NCBI RefSeq assembly: GCF_003970795.1
Contig: NZ_RWKW01000012.1
Location: 1-64,000 of the forward strand
From: Aquibium carbonis
GTDB taxonomy: Bacteria > Pseudomonadota > Alphaproteobacteria > Rhizobiales > Rhizobiaceae
Reading direction: 5' to 3'
DNA length: 64,000 bases
The position numbers and the translations under genes are program-made. Shown here in pieces: positions 6,400-61,091 of the stretch (positions are counted from its first letter, which is position 1; the number at the start of each line of letters is the position of its first letter). The notes under the pieces are model-generated. The model searched no databases. It was given only the letters and a program-made list of their open reading frames with translations, and was not told the origin of the DNA.

Positions 6400-7413
6400 T
6401 CAGTCTGCTCGCCAGACATCCTTCATGACGCGCAGCCAGTTGCCGGAACGCACCTTGTCGATGTCGGACTGCGAGTAACCCCGCGCCTTCATCCCGTCCC
6501 AGATGCGCGGCGTGTGCGCCAGGGACTGGAAGTCGACGTTGAGGCGCTTTTCGTAGGTGTACCAGTCTCCGAGCACGCCGGTGATGTTCGGGCTGTATCC
6601 GTTCGGCCCGTAGGACTTGTCCCATTTCTCCGGGCTCGGCGCCTGTCCTTCGGTCACGTCGCTGGCGAAAGCGACGTGTTCGATCCCGCCGATCTTCACG
6701 AGATGATCGATGTGGTTCAGATAGTCATCGAGCGTGGGGCGCTGATCGTGGCGTACGGCTGGCGACCACATCACTGCGCCAATCAGCCCGCCGGTTTTGG
6801 CGACGGCGCGGATATGCTCGTCCTTCTTGTTGCGAAGGCTTGGACACACTTCGAAGGCGTTCGCGTGGCTAATGACCATGGGCCCCTTGGCTGCCGCGAG
6901 ATAGTCGCTCGTCGAGCGGTGTCCGCAGTGGGACAAGTCGATGATCAGGCCGAGACGCGTCATCTCGTCGATCCATTCGACGCCTTTCGGCTTCATGCCC
7001 TTGTCGGCCTCCCTCTCGAAGGGTGCGCCATAACCGAGCGTGTTTTCCTCGTTGTAGGTCGGCTGCAGGATGCGGACGCCAAGCCGCTTCATGGTGGCGA
7101 GGAGGCGGAGATCGTCCTCGACCATCATGGAGTTCTGGGTGCCGAGAATGTAGCCGAGCTTGCCTGAGCGATGCGCGCTTTCGATGTCGGCGACTGATTT
7201 CACCACCGTTGCCACATCGCTCATCGCGTCGATCCTGGCGCAATTGGCTTCGAGTTCGACGAGGGAATCCGACAGTCCGACAAAAGGCGACATGGCTGTC
7301 AGATTGACCGCCGATACGCCGCCCTCGAGCGTGCGCATGACCTGGTCGCGCGAAACCGCTGCGCAATTCAATCCGTCGATCGTCAGTGGGGAGCCCGCGG
7401 TCGTGCCTGTCAT
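6400..7413 (-). CDS. Peptidase M19-like protein (divergent membrane dipeptidase family)
   Basis: A 337-residue TIM-barrel protein of the renal dipeptidase (M19) family, recognised by LGVRILQPTYNEENTLGYG, IIDLSHCGHRSTSDYL, VISHANAF and HVAFASDVTEG. Family knowledge places metal ligands at His/Asp in an N-terminal DGHxD, a Glu in a VEG segment, and two later His. Here the N-terminal motif is DGLNC and the Glu position is Gln (LGTQNS), while both later His are kept. Function as a true metallopeptidase is therefore doubtful. It has a paralog at 11713 in the peptide-importer operon. The adjacent XRE gene at 7465 runs in the same direction, upstream of it. Confidence 0.85.
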   Translation of the reverse strand: MTGTTAGSPLTIDGLNCAAVSRDQVMRTLEGGVSAVNLTAMSPFVGLSDSLVELEANCARIDAMSDVATVVKSVADIESAHRSGKLGYILGTQNSMMVEDDLRLLATMKRLGVRILQPTYNEENTLGYGAPFEREADKGMKPKGVEWIDEMTRLGLIIDLSHCGHRSTSDYLAAAKGPMVISHANAFEVCPSLRNKKDEHIRAVAKTGGLIGAVMWSPAVRHDQRPTLDDYLNHIDHLVKIGGIEHVAFASDVTEGQAPSPEKWDKSYGPNGYSPNITGVLGDWYTYEKRLNVDFQSLAHTPRIWDGMKARGYSQSDIDKVRSGNWLRVMKDVWRAD

Positions 7414-7464
7414 CGCATTTGCCTCGTTTATCTGTTTGTCGGTTTGGGGAGAGGTGGCGAGAGA

Positions 7465-8076
7465 TCACTTCTCGCGGTAATTGACCCACAGGGCCTTGGC
7501 CGGACGGTCCCCGGCGTTCCGGAACTGGTGCGGCCGGTTGCTGTTGAAGCGAAAGCTATCACCTTCGCCGAGGATGTGCTTCTTGCCGTCGACGATCAGC
7601 TCGATGCCGCCTTCCATCACGAACCCGGCCTCCTCGCCGCTGTGCGCATAGGCTTCATCCCCGGACTTTCCGCCCGGTTGCAGCGTGATCATGAAGATGT
7701 CGAGCCGCGGCACGCGACTGAAAGGCGTGAGCAGTTCCTTCGAGGCCCCCGAATCCGCCAGGTCGATCCGCTTGCGCTCGGCGGGACCGGCCGTGATGCG
7801 GTGTCCTTCGTCGCTCGACGGTTCGGAGGGAAAGACGTCCCCGATGCTGACCTCAAGTGCCTCCGCGATGCGCGCCAAGGCGCGAACCGACGCCGAGGAC
7901 AAGCCCCGCTCGATCTGGCTCAGGAAGCCGACCGAGAGACCGGCGCGGACCGCCAGTTCCTTCAGCGATCGTCCGCGAACCTTCCGCAACTGCCTGACGC
8001 GATTGCCGACGGCAACATCGGTTTGATGCTGGTCGTCTCCGATGGCGTCCTTGTCAGCCAGTGAATCCTTCGACAC
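7465..8076 (-). CDS. XRE-family regulator with C-terminal cupin
   Basis: A 203-residue regulator. An N-terminal XRE helix-turn-helix (about residues 23-80, VRQLRKVRGRSLKELAVRAG, then VGFLSQIERG) is joined to a cupin domain (about 125-200, HSGEEAGFVMEGGIEL and the GDSFRFNSNRPHQF half). This layout is typical of regulators of amine, amino-acid and peptide catabolism such as PuuR-like proteins. It is divergent from the peptide-binding protein gene at 8241 and upstream of the M19-like gene at 6400, so it probably controls both sides in response to a small ligand bound by the cupin. Confidence 0.92.
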   Translation of the reverse strand: MSKDSLADKDAIGDDQHQTDVAVGNRVRQLRKVRGRSLKELAVRAGLSVGFLSQIERGLSSASVRALARIAEALEVSIGDVFPSEPSSDEGHRITAGPAERKRIDLADSGASKELLTPFSRVPRLDIFMITLQPGGKSGDEAYAHSGEEAGFVMEGGIELIVDGKKHILGEGDSFRFNSNRPHQFRNAGDRPAKALWVNYREK

Positions 8077-54887: not shown

Positions 54888-55481
54888 TTAGCCGGCTTTG
54901 GCAAAGGCTACGCACTGGAATCGGAACTCATCGTGGCGATAGACGAGGCGCATGTGTCGACGGAAGTGGTCCCGGGCAGCCTTCTGGGCAAGACGGGGAA
55001 GGATCGCCGCATCATCGAAGTTGCGCAAATGATGCAAGCTGACGATGCGTCCGCCCCGCGCCGTCGCGCGCAGCATCTGGCCGAGCAATCTTCGAAGATC
55101 GTTGGGATGCAAATAGTAGAGAATTTCCGATGCCACGATCAAATCGAAAGGGCCGCTGGGCATATCGGCGGGCAGAACCCCGGCGGCCAGCAACACGCGG
55201 TCATTCGACCCGATCCTTCGCTTCGCTTCCCGCAGCGCGGTTGGCGACGCGTCCTGCGCTGTCAGGCGCAGACATCGCGGTGCCAGTCGTTTCGTCGTCT
55301 CGCCGATCGCGCATGCCAGTTCGAACCCTCGCCCATAGTTGCGATCCCCGGCTGCGCGCAGCAGGATGCCACGCTTGTGCGCCTCGAACGGGGAACGGGT
55401 ATAGTTCCACGGGTCGATCTCTTGCCGGAACTTGGCCTCGAAGCCGGCGGCTTGGATCACTCGCGCACGCATGGGCGCCAA
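54888..55481 (-). CDS. NodS-like SAM-dependent methyltransferase
   Basis: A 197-residue class I methyltransferase. The SAM-binding loop is GRGFELACAIGETTKRLA (E-xAxGxGT-like), the acidic strand is RLTAQDASPTAL, and post-I motifs are PSGPFDLIVASEILYY and ATARGGRIVSLHHLR. It resembles the NodS family. The TTG start at 55481 lies inside the PIG-L gene (25-base overlap, different frame); an ATG at 55472 is an alternative. Known relatives are often one fused PIG-L/methyltransferase polypeptide, so this may be a frameshifted half. Last gene of the four-gene cluster. Confidence 0.85.
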   Translation of the reverse strand: MAPMRARVIQAAGFEAKFRQEIDPWNYTRSPFEAHKRGILLRAAGDRNYGRGFELACAIGETTKRLAPRCLRLTAQDASPTALREAKRRIGSNDRVLLAAGVLPADMPSGPFDLIVASEILYYLHPNDLRRLLGQMLRATARGGRIVSLHHLRNFDDAAILPRLAQKAARDHFRRHMRLVYRHDEFRFQCVAFAKAG

Positions 55482-56221
55482 TACACTTCCTCCGGCCCCG
55501 TCAGACGTTCGATCGTGCGGTCGCTCAGGACGAAAGCAGACGGATCATCCAAGATGAGTTGGCCAAGCTGGGATCGATGGGCCCTGACCGCATGCTTTTT
55601 GGCGTCCACCACGTCGGAAATGTCGAACCTCAGGATCTCCATTTCGATCGGTCGCGGTCGGTCCTCCGGCAAGCCGAGCTCGTCGAGCCAGATGGCGTAT
55701 TCCAGAACTTCGCAGGAATGGTCGGCCGCCGAAAGAGAATCCATCACCAGCGACCATGAATCCCTGTGATCGCAATGCGGATCGCGGCGCCAGGGAATGA
55801 TTGCGAACGCGGGCGACAGGTAACGCAGGATGGATACCATGTGAGCCTTCGCGATCCTGTAGGCAGAACTGTTCGGCGACGGCATGTCGGCATCCGGCAA
55901 TCCAAGAAAGCTCCGTGGCGATTGCTCCGCTCCCAGCCGTTTCAAGGCCTCGATCGCCTCCGCCTCCCGACGCGCAGCCAGTCGGGTCCTCGTCCATGAT
56001 GCGGAATTGCGATGAGACGCCCCTCCATCGGTGACGAACACGGTGTGAACCCGTTCGCCCCTGCGAACAGCCGCCGCGATCAGACCGCCGCATCCAAGCG
56101 ACTCGTCGTCGGGATGGGGCGCGACGACGAGGATCGGCCCGCGCGGCGGGAACCTGGCGGTCCTCACCCATTCCTCCCGCCGCTCAAGTTGCGGTAGCCA
56201 GCCGGGCTCCAGCGCGCACAT
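55457..56221 (-). CDS. PIG-L family deacetylase
   Basis: A 254-residue zinc-dependent N-deacetylase-fold protein. The metal site is visible: APHPDDESLGCGG (the AHPDDE motif) and PHCDHRDSW (the downstream His). Members remove acetyl groups from N-acetylglucosamine-linked lipids or glycosides such as mycothiol, bacillithiol and teicoplanin-type substrates. Its start overlaps the acyl-CoA-dehydrogenase-like gene by 58 bases and its end overlaps the methyltransferase. The cluster suggests processing of a glycosylated or acylated metabolite. Confidence 0.9.
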   Translation of the reverse strand: MCALEPGWLPQLERREEWVRTARFPPRGPILVVAPHPDDESLGCGGLIAAAVRRGERVHTVFVTDGGASHRNSASWTRTRLAARREAEAIEALKRLGAEQSPRSFLGLPDADMPSPNSSAYRIAKAHMVSILRYLSPAFAIIPWRRDPHCDHRDSWSLVMDSLSAADHSCEVLEYAIWLDELGLPEDRPRPIEMEILRFDISDVVDAKKHAVRAHRSQLGQLILDDPSAFVLSDRTIERLTGPEEVYWRPCVRE

Positions 56222-57273
56222 GCGATCGCCTCACCGAACGCGGCGAACGCCCCGTCCGGATTGGGTTGGCGCAGATAGGTCCGCAGGTCGCGCATGAGAC
56301 GTTCGAACGGATGCGGCGAGATCATCCCGGCCGCGCCAATGGCTTGCTCCGCCTCCTGCAACACGCACAGGGCGCCCTCTTCGACCACCATGCGGGCCGC
56401 GTTCGCGCTAGCCATGAGGTAGGCCTGGAGCTCCGTCGCATACGGGTTGGAGGCCGCCACGATCCAGGCTTCCGCGAGGCGGTCGAGCCAGAGATAGCCC
56501 GTCTCGACATGGGCGCCGAGGCGGGCGAGCCGATGCGACTGGTAAGGATTGGCGGCGCGGTTCGTTCGGTTCAAGTGGCTGACGACGGTGTCGAGGATCG
56601 TATGCATCCCGCCCACCTGAACGGCGACGAAGCGAATCGCGCCCGCAGAGAACCAAGGTTGGGCGATGTAGTCGTCCGGTTCTCCCAGCAGCCAGTCCTG
56701 GCTGGGCTCAAGCCCGGTCAAATCCGCGATGTGGCTTCCCGATGCTCGCATGCCGACCGGACGCCACCATGCGCGGTCGACTGTTAACTCGCTCACCGGA
56801 ACGACGATCATCTGCCGGCCGGCATCGATGGTGACTGTCACGATGGCGTGCGACAGCCCATCCACACCCGACGCGAAATTCTTCTTGCCGAAAAGCCGCC
56901 CGCCCTCCAGCCGCAGCGGATCCTCCGGGACATCGGTGTTCCAGACTCCGAAAGCGCCCCCACTGGCAGCAATGGTTGCGTAGCTCCGCCGCTGTGTGTC
57001 TGTGCCGTAGCGATCCATGAGAAAGAAGGCATTCACGTGGCCTTCGAAGAGTCGTCCGACGCTCAGGTCTCCGCGACCAACAGCGGCGAGAAGGCGCAGC
57101 AACGCCTTCATCTCGCCCGGTCTGACGGGAGGGTTCGCAAGCAGGTTCGCATGCCTCAACACGTCGAAGGCGGCTTTCGGAAACGCGCCGTCGACGTCGC
57201 GCGCCGGAGCGCCTTCGGCGATCTGGCGGAATAGCTCGTCCAGCCCGTCCTGGCTGTCTGGTTCAAGCAGCAT
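56164..57273 (-). CDS. Acyl-CoA dehydrogenase-family protein
   Basis: A 369-residue acyl-CoA dehydrogenase-fold protein, with N-terminal helices, a middle beta-domain (GGAFGVWNTDVPEDPLRLEG, then GKKNFASGVDGLSHAIVTVT) and a C-terminal helical bundle ending HPFERLMRDLRTYLRQPNPD. That end is the family's HxPxERLxRDxR element, without the usual following EGTSEI segment. It is a divergent member and the exact substrate is unclear. Within this cluster it overlaps both neighbours (GT2 by 11 bases, PIG-L by 58), implying tight co-expression. Confidence 0.87.
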   Translation of the reverse strand: MLLEPDSQDGLDELFRQIAEGAPARDVDGAFPKAAFDVLRHANLLANPPVRPGEMKALLRLLAAVGRGDLSVGRLFEGHVNAFFLMDRYGTDTQRRSYATIAASGGAFGVWNTDVPEDPLRLEGGRLFGKKNFASGVDGLSHAIVTVTIDAGRQMIVVPVSELTVDRAWWRPVGMRASGSHIADLTGLEPSQDWLLGEPDDYIAQPWFSAGAIRFVAVQVGGMHTILDTVVSHLNRTNRAANPYQSHRLARLGAHVETGYLWLDRLAEAWIVAASNPYATELQAYLMASANAARMVVEEGALCVLQEAEQAIGAAGMISPHPFERLMRDLRTYLRQPNPDGAFAAFGEAIACARWSPAGYRNLSGGRNG

Positions 57274-58324
57274 TGGCTAGCGCCCCCGATGTCGCGATCA
57301 TCTGTTCCAGCTGCGCGATGGCCAGAGCGGCCGGCATGGTTCCAACTGCATCGGGGTCGTCGGCGGCAAATCGCGCGATCAGTCCGGGCACCGTCGATCG
57401 ATAGGACGTCTCCGGAAGTCCCAGACGATCCAGGCAGGGACGAAGGAGCGAGGGCGGACGGCCCTGAAGCACTCGCAACCGTCGGCGCAGGATCAGTCTA
57501 GCTTGGACGGAACGGGGGCATTCGACTAGGATCGGCGCTCCGGACAGCTCTTCCCTGATCCAGTTGCGCAGGCATTCGGCCATGCCGCCGGCAGCGCGCC
57601 CCACCGTCCTGGCGGACACTGTCACCGAGACCTCGGGGGCATGCCTCAGGCGGAAACCCGCCGCCTGCACTTTTGCCACGAACGCGAGATCCTCGCGGAA
57701 TGGCAGCGGATCGAGACCGCCGACATCCCGATAGACGTTGTTTCGAACGGCCAAACTTGCACCCGTATGATCATGATGCCGCGGCCAGGGGTCATAATCA
57801 AGCGGATCGATCGCCGCCGCCAGCTGGTCGCGCAGGGCGGCATACCGAGCGTGCATAGCAGCGCGCCGAAGGAACTCCGGCCCCAGCAGGTCTTCTTCCT
57901 CGGGGTCGCCGACGATCCGTCCGCCGACGAGGTCGGCCCCGGCTGCAATTGCGCGCAGATTGCCGTCGATCCAGTCATCGCGGGGCACGGCATCCGCATC
58001 GGTCGTCAGGATCACTCCCGCACGGTCTCCAATCATCGCGCTGCCGATGCCCATAGCCAAGCTTCGTGCAGAACCGACATGGGCCTGCCCGGCGGGAAAG
58101 TGAACGTCCACCATGGTCAGGCGCAGCTGCGGCAAGCCCGCCACGGCGTGTCGCGCGGCCAGCCCGGAACCATCATCGGTGTTGTTGAGAACCACGACGA
58201 TCTCGAGCGGCTCGCGAAAGCGCGTCAGGATCGTCTGGCGGGAAAGGGCACGCAACAGCTTCGGAAGCAGGGCTTCCTCGTTCCGGGCGGGAACCACGAC
58301 GACGGGCATGCCTGGGTCAATCAT
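57263..58324 (-). CDS. Family-2 glycosyltransferase
   Basis: A 353-residue GT-A fold glycosyltransferase. The nucleotide-binding start is VVVVPARNEEALLPKLLRAL, the metal-binding DxD is LTTDADAVPRDDW, and later HTGASLAVRNNVYRDVGGLD and FREDLAFVAKVQAAGF are the GT2 acceptor and ED-containing blocks. There are no membrane segments, so it is soluble or peripheral. First gene of the four-gene cluster (GT2, acyl-CoA-dehydrogenase-like, PIG-L, methyltransferase). The sugar donor is not predictable. Confidence 0.92.
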   Translation of the reverse strand: MIDPGMPVVVVPARNEEALLPKLLRALSRQTILTRFREPLEIVVVLNNTDDGSGLAARHAVAGLPQLRLTMVDVHFPAGQAHVGSARSLAMGIGSAMIGDRAGVILTTDADAVPRDDWIDGNLRAIAAGADLVGGRIVGDPEEEDLLGPEFLRRAAMHARYAALRDQLAAAIDPLDYDPWPRHHDHTGASLAVRNNVYRDVGGLDPLPFREDLAFVAKVQAAGFRLRHAPEVSVTVSARTVGRAAGGMAECLRNWIREELSGAPILVECPRSVQARLILRRRLRVLQGRPPSLLRPCLDRLGLPETSYRSTVPGLIARFAADDPDAVGTMPAALAIAQLEQMIATSGALANAA

Positions 58325-58354: not shown

Positions 58355-58692
58355 TCATTGCCGAACTACGAAGTCGGGCAATCGTTCCAATGGTTTGAAA
58401 TGGATGCGTTCGTCCGGCCCGATAACCGCCTGTCGGGTTGGGGCGGAATCGTCGATGACCGACACGACCGTGGCGATCTTCTGCGACCCCGCTTCGATGC
58501 GGTGCAGGCCTCGACGGCGTTGCCTACCACCTTCTGCGATGCGAGCGGGGCTTCCCGGGCATCGCTCGCCTGGGCACGCGTCTGCCGGATCTTCTCGGAT
58601 AACGAGCGGACGGTGGCGGTGATCTGCTCGAGCGCGGCGGAAGCCTGTTCGAGGACAGCCGCCTGCTGTTCGGTCCGCTGCTGTGGCAGCAT
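58355..58692 (-). pseudogene. Methyl-accepting chemotaxis protein remnant
   Basis: The minus-strand frame from 58692 reads RTEQQAAVLEQASAALEQIT and continues to SQKVVGNAVEA. After a 1-base shift it continues HRIEAGSQKIATVVSVIDD. This is the start of the coiled-coil signalling domain of an MCP. The N-terminal sensor and the conserved hairpin tip (FQTNLLALNA) are both absent. It then runs into an unrelated tail ending at 58355. The fragment separates the glycosyltransferase cluster from the integrase gene. Confidence 0.8.
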
Positions 58693-58928: not shown

Positions 58929-61091
58929 ATGCATATGCAAGCGGGTGTATCGTCCGATGTATCGCTGGACGTAGCGCCACGATCGGGGCCCGCTCCCCGT
59001 CCTGGCATCCAGAAGACCCCGAGGCGGGCCCGCGCGCCGGGCCCCGGAAAATATCTCGTCCGGTCAGGCTCCGTTTGTCTTTTTCAGATGAGAGTGCCGC
59101 AGGCCATCGTCGGCGGCACCGCAACCCGCATCCTGCGGATCGGGCTCGGCGCTATGACATCAAGCCAGGCGAGGGCGAGGGCCGAGCTCCTTGCCGCGCT
59201 GGCACGTGAGTGCTTCGACCGGGTGAAAGCGAGGCAGATGAACCAGAGCGATGCCGATCCGGCCCAGGGCGTCCCCACATTCGAGGGCGAGACGCCCGAA
59301 CTGACTGCTGCCGAAGTGAAGGGCTATCTTAAGGCCGTCCAGGCAATGCTGTCTCAGCCCGCACCGCCGACCGCCCCGCATCAGCTGCCAGCCTTCTCCG
59401 GCCTTCGCGACCTCGTCCTGCTGAACCGCGAACTGAGCAAGGGTCCAGGCGCCAACCCCTTGATCGTCGGCAATGCCGAAGGTCTCAAGCAAATGGCTAT
59501 CGGGCGCGTCTCGGAAACGCTCGACAACATCGATCGCAGCCGTCCCGCAGCGGCCCCGCTCACCGAGGCCCGACGCGCAGTTGGCGGCGACAACCAGGAT
59601 GGCCGGCGAACCCCTGCGGACGAGCAACCTGATCGAACTCCCGTTCAACAGGCAGCGCCGGGGGCGCCACGGTCAGCCACGACCGGACCATCGGACGAAC
59701 AAGCCCTGAATGCACCTGACCAGGCAGGTGATACCAACAGCCACACAATCGCACCATCGGCCGACGACATCGCCGCCTCAGTCGTGCCGGACGCTGCTCA
59801 GGTCGCGCATCTTGAAGGCCCACTCACCCCGACACCGATCGCCTTTGCCGTAGCTGCGTCGTCGGAGCCCGCCGGACCCGGCTCGCATCTGCGCCTCCAT
59901 CGCGACGCCGATGGCAAGATCATTCCCGCCCACAGGCTCGATCGCAGGACAGTCGAACGCAGGCCCTCGCGCCTGCCGCTGCTGAGCGAGATCGCGGACG
60001 AGTATTTCGACGCCCGCGCGATCAAGGTCGGCAAGAACAACAAGGATCTACTGACGGCGCGCAACCGCCTCGCTTTGTTCATCGAACTGATCGGCGATCA
60101 CCCCGTGGATACCTATTCCGGGGCCGATCTGCAGGCCTACATCGCACTCATGACGCATTGGCCAGCACTTGCGCGACATCGCCCGGCCGGGCTGTCGCCC
60201 TGGGAAATCCTGGCCGCGAACGCCGATCTCAGACACAGGCCGCTGAAGCGCTCCGCCCTGGAAGACGGCTACGTGTCGATCGCCAAGACGGTGATCGGGT
60301 CGAGAACGATCGAGTACGGCTACGACAATCCCCTGCTCGGCGTAAAGGTCCGCTATCCCGACACGGCCGCGCCGGCACAAGCCACCGAGCCGCTCAGCAC
60401 GCGCCAGTTGACGGACGTCTTTCGCGCCGGAGTGGACGGCGGCCTGCTCGACGAAGCGTTGCTTCCCCTTCTCGGCAATCTGACAGGTAGGCGCCTTGGC
60501 CTGTTGGTGCATCTGACGGGCAACGACCTGCGCGAGAAATATCCCGGCGTGTGGGTCGCGCAGACGTCGGGAATCGTCCTCTCGCCAGAGGGCCTGTGGA
60601 AGCGCGTGCCGATCAAGACGTATCAGAGCACGACCTTCTTCGTGCTCCATGATCTGCTCCTCAAGATCGGCTTCATCGACTGGGCGAGCGCCCAAGGTGA
60701 CGCGTTTCTCTTTCCTGCCCTGACCAGTCTCAAGGACCCAAGCAAGCAGGCAAGCACTTACATGCAGCGCCTTTTCCGCAAGGCCGGCATCGCAGGACAG
60801 CGACGGGAGGTGTTCCACTCGCTGCGAGGTGGCCACATCGAACTGATGCGGGACAACAAGGTGGACCCTCGCGATCGTCGGCTGCAGGCCGGACACAAGC
60901 TGGAGGAAGAGCATGACCTCTACGGCTTCAAGTCGATCAGCGAAGTGCGTGCGCGGGAACTTGCTCACGCGAAACTCAACCCGAAGTCGACTACTCGATG
61001 TTCGAGGGTCTCGACTTCCATCGCCTCGCCAAGGCCCGTCGAACCAAAGGGCGACGGCCGGGCAAGAACCCTTAGAACCGGGCAGCGGTGA
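58929..61091 (+). CDS. Long tyrosine recombinase/integrase
   Basis: A 720-residue site-specific recombinase. Near residue 40 an integrase-type N-terminal module (GKYLVRSGSVCLFQMRVPQA) is recognisable. There follows a long low-complexity linker (about 190-320, Pro/Ala-rich), then the core-binding domain (about 335-440) and the catalytic domain with Arg in LTGRRLGLLVHLTG, HSLR in VFHSLRGGHIE, GH in LQAGHKLEEEHD and Tyr in LYGF. All catalytic residues are kept, so it could be active. No attachment site or tRNA is visible nearby and it has no recognisable partner genes. It is flanked by pseudogenes. Confidence 0.85.
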   Translation: MHMQAGVSSDVSLDVAPRSGPAPRPGIQKTPRRARAPGPGKYLVRSGSVCLFQMRVPQAIVGGTATRILRIGLGAMTSSQARARAELLAALARECFDRVKARQMNQSDADPAQGVPTFEGETPELTAAEVKGYLKAVQAMLSQPAPPTAPHQLPAFSGLRDLVLLNRELSKGPGANPLIVGNAEGLKQMAIGRVSETLDNIDRSRPAAAPLTEARRAVGGDNQDGRRTPADEQPDRTPVQQAAPGAPRSATTGPSDEQALNAPDQAGDTNSHTIAPSADDIAASVVPDAAQVAHLEGPLTPTPIAFAVAASSEPAGPGSHLRLHRDADGKIIPAHRLDRRTVERRPSRLPLLSEIADEYFDARAIKVGKNNKDLLTARNRLALFIELIGDHPVDTYSGADLQAYIALMTHWPALARHRPAGLSPWEILAANADLRHRPLKRSALEDGYVSIAKTVIGSRTIEYGYDNPLLGVKVRYPDTAAPAQATEPLSTRQLTDVFRAGVDGGLLDEALLPLLGNLTGRRLGLLVHLTGNDLREKYPGVWVAQTSGIVLSPEGLWKRVPIKTYQSTTFFVLHDLLLKIGFIDWASAQGDAFLFPALTSLKDPSKQASTYMQRLFRKAGIAGQRREVFHSLRGGHIELMRDNKVDPRDRRLQAGHKLEEEHDLYGFKSISEVRARELAHAKLNPKSTTRCSRVSTSIASPRPVEPKGDGRARTLRTGQR

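Follow-up and report, generated by a model that had tools for sequence, protein, structure and literature searches.

A four-gene cassette in Aquibium carbonis

This analysis concerns a cassette of four genes on the minus strand of the Aquibium carbonis contig NZ_RWKW01000012.1, within the window formed by its first 64,000 nucleotides (the whole stretch that was analysed, part of a 5.34 Mb assembly). The first cassette gene encodes a GT2-fold glycosyltransferase (GT2; 57263..58324, 353 aa, Pfam Glycos_transf_2). It is followed by the gene for a flavoenzyme with the acyl-CoA dehydrogenase (ACAD) fold (56164..57273, 369 aa, Pfam Acyl-CoA_dh_1 and Acyl-CoA_dh_2 (C-terminal domain)), that for an N-deacetylase of the PIG-L/LmbE family (PIG-L; 55457..56221, 254 aa as listed, Pfam PIG-L at 2.2e-26) and that for a NodS-like S-adenosylmethionine-dependent methyltransferase (MT; 54888..55481, 197 aa, Pfam NodS at 2.1e-14, NodS/Methyltransf). 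The four genes are real and their catalytic motifs are intact: TDADA and RED in GT2, PHPDDE (35-40) and DPHCDHR (147-153) in PIG-L, ELACAIG in the MT.

A preliminary description of this DNA had the coordinates, strand and families right, and one of its three overlaps (11, 58 and 25 bases) probably needs correction. All three result from choosing start codons as far upstream as possible; for PIG-L this is the most upstream ATG, which gives the 58-base overlap. The GTG at 56167 is probably the true start, with an overlap of 4 bases, because it forms a GTGA overlap with the stop of the preceding gene, a GGGAGGA-like ribosome site stands directly before it, and the PIG-L profile match starts no earlier than 56149. 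The 25-base overlap involves a TTG start, with GGAGGA before it. Literature searches on the four-gene set found no paper that assigns it a function or product, in agreement with the earlier view of the arrangement as uncharacterised.

Co-occurrence and correlated evolution of the four families

The loci were collected with the ACAD-like protein as the only seed, the other three families not being selected for. A motif scan of the genomes of 84,980 species gave 548 stretches encoding a relative, and the best 80 of these 548, our locus set, were scored with profiles of all four families. The module is recurrent, as had been supposed: all four families are present in 65 of the 80 loci. The remaining loci comprise seven with flavoenzyme, PIG-L and MT, two with GT2, flavoenzyme and MT (both from Afifella), one with GT2, flavoenzyme and PIG-L, one with flavoenzyme and PIG-L only, and four in which the flavoenzyme stands by itself; several of the incomplete loci lie on short contigs. 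This near-obligate co-occurrence is also visible among 297 genomes of the window's order, where the flavoenzyme family (E up to 1e-30) was found in 28, spread over 10 of 123 genera, and GT2 in the identical 28; about six to nine candidates were scored per genome, and such counts are neither exhaustive nor, the genomes being related, independent. The MT adjoins the flavoenzyme in all 28, the window included. PIG-L (E up to 1e-30) was found in 25 of the 297 genomes, 23 of them within the flavoenzyme's 28. In one flavoenzyme genome (G034) PIG-L narrowly misses the threshold (3.1e-30), yet adjoins the flavoenzyme, and the four others with PIG-L below threshold (G028, G107, G138 and G166) belong to a single genus, apparently Afifella.

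Co-presence without linkage is a stronger sign of joint function than linkage. All four genomes whose locus has only the flavoenzyme carry PIG-L and the MT elsewhere, and three of them also GT2, the fourth being a metagenome-assembled genome (MAG). Within three Dyadobacter genomes (L074, L080 and L115) PIG-L, MT and GT2 are grouped on a different contig from the flavoenzyme; two of these three sites were inspected directly. At least one member is distant or on a separate contig in G117, G196 and G272 (in G272 it is GT2), and Deinococcus radiodurans has GT2 on the same replicon as the flavoenzyme, 175 kb apart.

The four proteins have also evolved in a correlated fashion, their pairwise distances correlating at 0.88-0.96 over the 65 complete loci and at 0.71-0.86 within 29 alphaproteobacterial loci. 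Two arrangements prevail: GT2-flavoenzyme-PIG-L-MT on a single strand (30 of the 80 loci) and flavoenzyme-PIG-L-MT facing a convergent GT2 (32 of 80). In seven loci PIG-L and MT share a single open frame (three Neolewinella species, Pricia, Leeuwenhoekiella, and L122 and L153 from the window's order), and two of these (L094 and L153) were verified as two-domain proteins; such fusions indicate consecutive steps. A presumed glycosyltransferase-flavoenzyme fusion in Deinococcus was rejected: the D. radiodurans flavoenzyme (L034) has 779 residues, of which the first approximately 415 (6741-7985) match no Pfam family, and GT2 lies far off, as noted above.

That four unrelated genes are merely chance neighbours would be imaginable given that each family is by itself large and common. 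Against such an accident stand the co-occurrence across phyla, the unlinked co-presence, the fusions and the correlated distances, and in our view the counts refute it, leaving it next to no probability. Failure of the families to co-occur was the outcome that the preliminary description had named as speaking against its interpretation, and the counts clearly go the other way.

The cassette had been thought of as proteobacterial. It is indeed present there, but its hosts extend from Alphaproteobacteria to Bacteroidota, Cyanobacteria, Deinococcus and a Puniceicoccaceae MAG, with copies in Nostoc and relatives, Hymenobacter, Dyadobacter, Deinococcus, Aureimonas, Roseomonas, Bradyrhizobium and Komagataeibacter. 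A set conserved over such a range, Alphaproteobacteria, Cyanobacteria and Deinococcus included, very probably has a useful product. Many of these genera are, we take it, survivors of light and drying. A sample of the phylum gave the flavoenzyme (E up to 1e-40) in at least 15 of 398 genomes, with five candidates scored per genome, and among the best 80 of the 548 stretches the nearest relative of the window's flavoenzyme is from Chelativorans (72% identity over the best segment). Among viral contigs the motif-pattern scan confirmed no relative of the flavoenzyme. One flavoenzyme gene (L033, 7905-9071) lies on a 66.7-kb Methylobacterium plasmid, and the 17 kb inspected there contains no GT2, PIG-L or MT.

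Monooxygenase or dehydrogenase?

The flavoenzyme receives only weak matches of the ACAD kind from NCBIfam and Pfam. When its family profile is compared with solved chains, the monooxygenases DszC (2.2e-27), TdsC (2e-23) and MsuC (1.2e-21) lead the best ACAD entry, with two ACAD-type-2 proteins, 5gj7 and 5z8t (the latter titled a flavin-containing monooxygenase), ranking between TdsC and MsuC. After MsuC come the ACAD 4u83 (5.3e-19), a probable monooxygenase (4.3e-17) and a putative ACAD (6.5e-17), and lower still KijD3 (8e-16), SCAD (5.4e-14), DnmZ (7.1e-14) and a nitrososynthase (6.4e-13). DszC and TdsC act on dibenzothiophene and MsuC on methanesulfinate; among the recurrent cassette neighbours in the 80 loci no sulfur-compound genes were recognised, a difference from these relatives.

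The second line of evidence is the C-terminal motif. The catalytic base of ACADs is a glutamate in the C-terminal YEGT motif. The cassette family ends in a segment of the form RDLxxYLRQ(P/A)xxD (F for Y in some; RDLRTYLRQP in the window) that has no glutamate in any of 28 sequences, and a glutamate is equally absent from the consensus and the conserved columns of 62 members. The ACAD catalytic glutamate that follows the RDxR helix is thus absent from the family's C-terminal segment, the alternative ACAD base position lying outside this comparison. Three further profile matches of 50-66 bits, ending RNARTHTLHDP, RNARTLSSHNP and RNARTLASHNP, are DszC-like and not ACAD-like at this point; two of them were obtained via likeness to the window protein and are a partial control. 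The cassette motif itself differs from the DszC type, with TYLRQP in place of THSLHDP. Another motif, EGHxN (77-81), is invariant in the 28 sequences, an invariance that the search motif imposes on the 62.

Because the profile is nearest to the DszC/MsuC type and the C-terminal motif holds no glutamate, "acyl-CoA dehydrogenase" is probably a misnomer for this protein, and the database name probably hides an oxygenase. On sequence grounds the flavoenzyme probably belongs to the class D flavin-dependent monooxygenases rather than to the acyl-CoA dehydrogenases, an oxygenase being clearly more likely than a dehydrogenase, and by analogy N-oxygenation would be the most fitting chemistry. The analogy is with KijD3, DnmZ and the nitrososynthase 3mxl, class D flavin N-oxygenases of amino sugars that work on TDP-sugar substrates in antibiotic clusters. 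Like them, the cassette protein is an ACAD-fold flavoenzyme beside amino-sugar enzymes; it differs in sharing only about 20% identity with them.

The alternative is an ACAD-type dehydrogenase or oxidase that desaturates an acyl chain on an amino sugar or on a carrier, and several observations lend themselves to it. Acyl-CoA_dh_1 matches all 62 family members, and the window protein scores higher to it than to Acyl-CoA_dh_2. Used as a single sequence, this protein has 4u83 as its best solved match (1.8e-4) and DnmZ as the next (0.0033), both weak. KijD3, DnmZ and the nitrososynthase all stand below 4u83 in the profile ranking, the last two also below SCAD. The structural model, although confident (pLDDT 94.9) and clearly of the ACAD fold (Z 38.5 to TdsC over 349 residues at 2.4 A), gives tied or nearly tied Z scores for TdsC (38.5), DszC (38.1), MsuC (37.4), SCAD (37.2) and KijD3 (36.1), so that the predicted fold does not separate monooxygenase from dehydrogenase. 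The preliminary label thus keeps its fold, while its function is doubtful. We have raised the weight of a dehydrogenase, and lowered the weights of the amino-sugar oxygenation scheme set out below and of its more specific version, because the nitrososynthases do not rank above 4u83 and the single sequence favours an ACAD. A dehydrogenase nevertheless seems unlikely to us: besides the missing glutamate and the DszC-leaning profile, no acyl-CoA ligase, acyltransferase or electron-transfer flavoprotein was recognised among the clustered neighbours, where no dedicated search for them was made.

Relatives of the other three proteins

Pfam Glycos_transf_2 matches all 50 members of the GT2 family, and the DxD motif is present. 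The GT2 model (pLDDT 94.8) finds its best fold matches in WrtF (Z 21.8, 223 residues, rmsd 5.6), PcManGT and chondroitin polymerase, at Z of about 21-22, and by this modelled fold the relatives are too distant to name the donor or acceptor. We infer an amino-sugar donor, which would probably make GT2 an amino-sugar transferase. AvpGT, the top Foldseek row, is described as a nucleoside glucosylating enzyme (PMC11959488); with TM-scores below 0.6 it was set aside as no evidence of GT2 function.

PIG-L scores 93.3 bits against a Pfam gathering threshold of 28.2 and has the HPDD and HxDH metal motifs. Its profile is nearest, among solved chains, to diacetylchitobiose deacetylase, then to TT1542 and GlcNAc-malate deacetylase. 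An identification as BshB1 was rejected, the score of 76.9 bits being far below the NCBIfam equivalog cut-off of 182.5. A second PIG-L in the window's genome (L002 / L129) scores 45 bits to the cassette profile and is probably of a different kind.

The best match of the MT profile is 4isc, an unassigned methyltransferase, followed by NodS (3ofj) and phosphoethanolamine N-methyltransferases. As NodS itself the MT was rejected (63.9 bits, with an equivalog cut-off of 300 in NCBIfam). NodS N-methylates deacetylated glucosamine, and from these relatives the cassette MT is probably N-methylating.

The set recalls the NodC-NodB-NodS chain, in which a GT2 transferase, an N-deacetylase and a NodS-type methyltransferase act in turn on an amino sugar, as those of the cassette would. 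The Nod-factor-like logic proposed earlier, deacetylation and then N-methylation, is consistent with the PIG-L/MT fusions and with the NodS and phosphoethanolamine N-methyltransferase relatives. The cassette differs in that its deacetylase is of the PIG-L family and not NodB, which has a different fold, and in having the flavoenzyme in place of the acyltransferase NodA. Many cassette hosts, moreover, do not nodulate plants.

An Acinetobacter operon and a possible stress role

A similar set of genes has appeared in studies of Acinetobacter. The blue-light receptor gene blsA of A. baumannii is flanked by genes for a glycosyltransferase, a methyltransferase, an LmbE-like protein and an acyl-CoA dehydrogenase (PMC6240043), and A. 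nosocomialis has like flanking genes (PMC9020721). ACICU_02432-02435 form one operon whose products are listed as a glycosyltransferase, a methyltransferase, LmbE and an acyl-CoA dehydrogenase-related protein (PMC5660220, Table 2); in two colistin-dependent mutants their expression was lowered 31- to 62-fold, and trehalose-6-phosphate synthase and phosphatase and a catalase went down with them (PMC5660220). The partners that STRING predicts for BlsA include KatE from co-expression, OtsB from co-occurrence and, from gene neighbourhood, LmbE together with the glycosyltransferase and methyltransferase (PMC9948694). The operon shares its four gene names with the cassette, and its order is that found in two of our loci from the phylum but outside the window's class (L150 and L151); these have the Acinetobacter gene order by sequence, match GT2 less strongly, at about 105 bits, and are probably from Gammaproteobacteria. 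Its setting differs, in that it adjoins the blue-light receptor gene (PMC6240043, PMC9020721), the cassette of the window having a TetR-type regulator on one side and an integrase-like gene on the other.

By analogy, the Acinetobacter co-regulation suggests that the cassette product is a stress metabolite. Stress genes also lie near some of our copies, Mn-catalase and DUF892 genes among them. An annotated plasmid copy in Bradyrhizobium is near Ku, LigD and a BLUF-domain gene, another in Komagataeibacter is near a general stress protein gene, and clustering placed a large catalase near the cassette in four loci, one of the four being identified.

The promoter evidence is slight. EcfG-type general-stress promoters have the form GGAAC-N16/17-CGTT, and this strict pattern occurs in one of 32 related loci and nowhere upstream of the window's cassette. 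With the pattern loosened afterwards, as an exploratory step, four of 33 upstream regions, the window's among them, contain a site against a background of 0.6%; two of the four (L052 and L069) are near-identical and look related. The window's site (58364..58388, minus strand) reads GGAAC, 16 bases, AGTT and precedes the GT2 start by 64 bases; it is a weak candidate and suggestive only.

A stress association would also suit a low-molecular-weight thiol or thiol-like antioxidant of the bacillithiol or mycothiol kind, an analogy that had been drawn earlier. Bacillithiol and mycothiol synthesis (BshA-B-C, MshA-D) share with the cassette a GlcNAc transfer followed by PIG-L/LmbE deacetylation, and PIG-L scores above background to BshB1 and also to MshB (29.2 bits). 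The analogy is weak all the same, and we regard a thiol as very improbable. The BshB1 score is far under its cut-off; a cysteine ligase is not one of the four proteins and none was recognised among the clustered neighbours, where no dedicated search was made; and the cassette has an MT and a flavoenzyme in addition, and a transferase of GT2 class where the thiol pathways have GT4.

A putative pathway to an amino-sugar glycoside

The reading that we favour, tentatively, is that the cassette is a free-standing biosynthetic unit for one small or lipid-linked amino-sugar glycoside, made in four steps and serving under stress. GT2 would transfer an N-acetyl-hexosamine from a nucleotide sugar to an acceptor; PIG-L would then remove the acetyl group from the transferred sugar, and the NodS-like MT would methylate the freed amine. 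Finally the flavoenzyme, acting as a class D monooxygenase with reduced flavin from a housekeeping reductase, would oxygenate the product, with the same nitrogen as the likeliest site (to a hydroxylamine or further), much as the nitrososynthases do on amino sugars. The role would likely fall in times of drying, osmotic or oxidative stress, since the same-named Acinetobacter operon is co-regulated with stress genes and such genes lie near some copies. The sugar and acceptor, the order of the steps, the modification of nitrogen and not of oxygen or carbon, and the role are all what we infer from the families and their relatives.

A more specific version of this reading, which we consider rather unlikely in all its parts, would have the product be an N-methylated, N-oxygenated glucosaminide (a hydroxylamine, nitrone or nitroso compound), a stress metabolite common to distant phyla that surface-living bacteria make on drying or on exposure to oxidants, as an antioxidant or protectant in the niche of bacillithiol or trehalose. 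Were the product an N-oxygenated amino sugar, nitrososynthase-like chemistry would occur outside antibiotic clusters, and there would be a concrete and testable stress-survival molecule. Two cassette hosts, Deinococcus radiodurans and Nostoc, are genetically manipulable.

Besides the ACAD-like traits of the flavoenzyme, several observations tell against the four-step scheme. Afifella has GT2, flavoenzyme and MT, mutually adjacent in three loci (L047 and L054 from Afifella, L133 from the same genus), but genome searches at E up to 1e-5 found no PIG-L in G028, G138 and the two Afifella locus genomes, four genomes in all. Perhaps deacetylation is not always needed, or is achieved otherwise, and Afifella offers a natural test of its purpose. 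Conversely, two genomes of the order (G267 and G277) carry a PIG-L of the cassette kind without the flavoenzyme, and G100 has a second PIG-L-MT-GT2 set that also lacks it. Inspection by eye of the clustered neighbours of the 80 loci revealed no flavin reductase. Similarity to NodS is no proof of N-methylation, the Acinetobacter operon is equated with the cassette by published gene names and not by sequence, and the general-stress promoter is not conserved over the 32-33 upstream regions.

Neighbouring genes and an envelope alternative

When open reading frames (ORFs) of at least 90 aa within 10 kb were clustered over the 80 loci, no fifth partner emerged, proteins of smaller size being outside this scope. 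Several large clusters that overlie the four genes are taken as shadow ORFs, and those that span phyla, of which a single representative per cluster was inspected by eye, look like big generic families; ABC-type ATPases, in 18 of 80 loci, are the most widespread. A Pfam tally of 132 neighbouring proteins from 25 sampled loci gives, among the families listed (25 of 127), nine GT4-type and seven GT2 glycosyltransferases, six Crp-type regulators, four Mn-catalases and four DUF892 proteins. In some alphaproteobacteria (L127, 9964-10821; L125, L134, L160 and L164) an extra gene for a protein of about 268-285 aa lies next to or near the MT. The one scanned is weakly GT2-like, and some of the loci have a GT4 gene nearby; this may be an extended form of the cassette.

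Such surroundings suit the notion that the cassette modifies a sugar within a bigger glycan or glycolipid of the cell envelope, such as lipooligosaccharide or exopolysaccharide, and makes no small soluble metabolite. Glycosyltransferases head the neighbour tally, the extra GT2-like gene would fit a glycan pathway, and the GT2 fold neighbours include WrtF, TarS and RmlT, which act on glycans. The Acinetobacter operon, moreover, falls in colistin-dependent mutants of which one has a disrupted lpxC. The same four genes nevertheless occur in phyla with different envelopes, inspection by eye of the 80 loci showed no glycan gene cluster recurring beside the cassette, and sequence inspection found no strongly hydrophobic segment in any of its four proteins. 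We see an envelope role as possible but doubtful, and retain the free-standing amino-sugar glycoside pathway as the favoured interpretation.

In the window the cassette is flanked by a TetR-type regulator and by the integrase-like gene, the latter divergent and upstream of it (58929-61091, plus strand). Its 720-aa product is matched by PHROG phrog_1, a phage integrase family (E 1.2e-11), and by no family of Pfam or NCBIfam, and the cassette may lie on the border of a mobile island. ARAGORN finds no tRNA in the window. Between it and the integrase-like gene, a 108-aa ORF (58366-58692, minus strand) matches part of methyl-accepting chemotaxis proteins and is likely the remnant of a broken gene.

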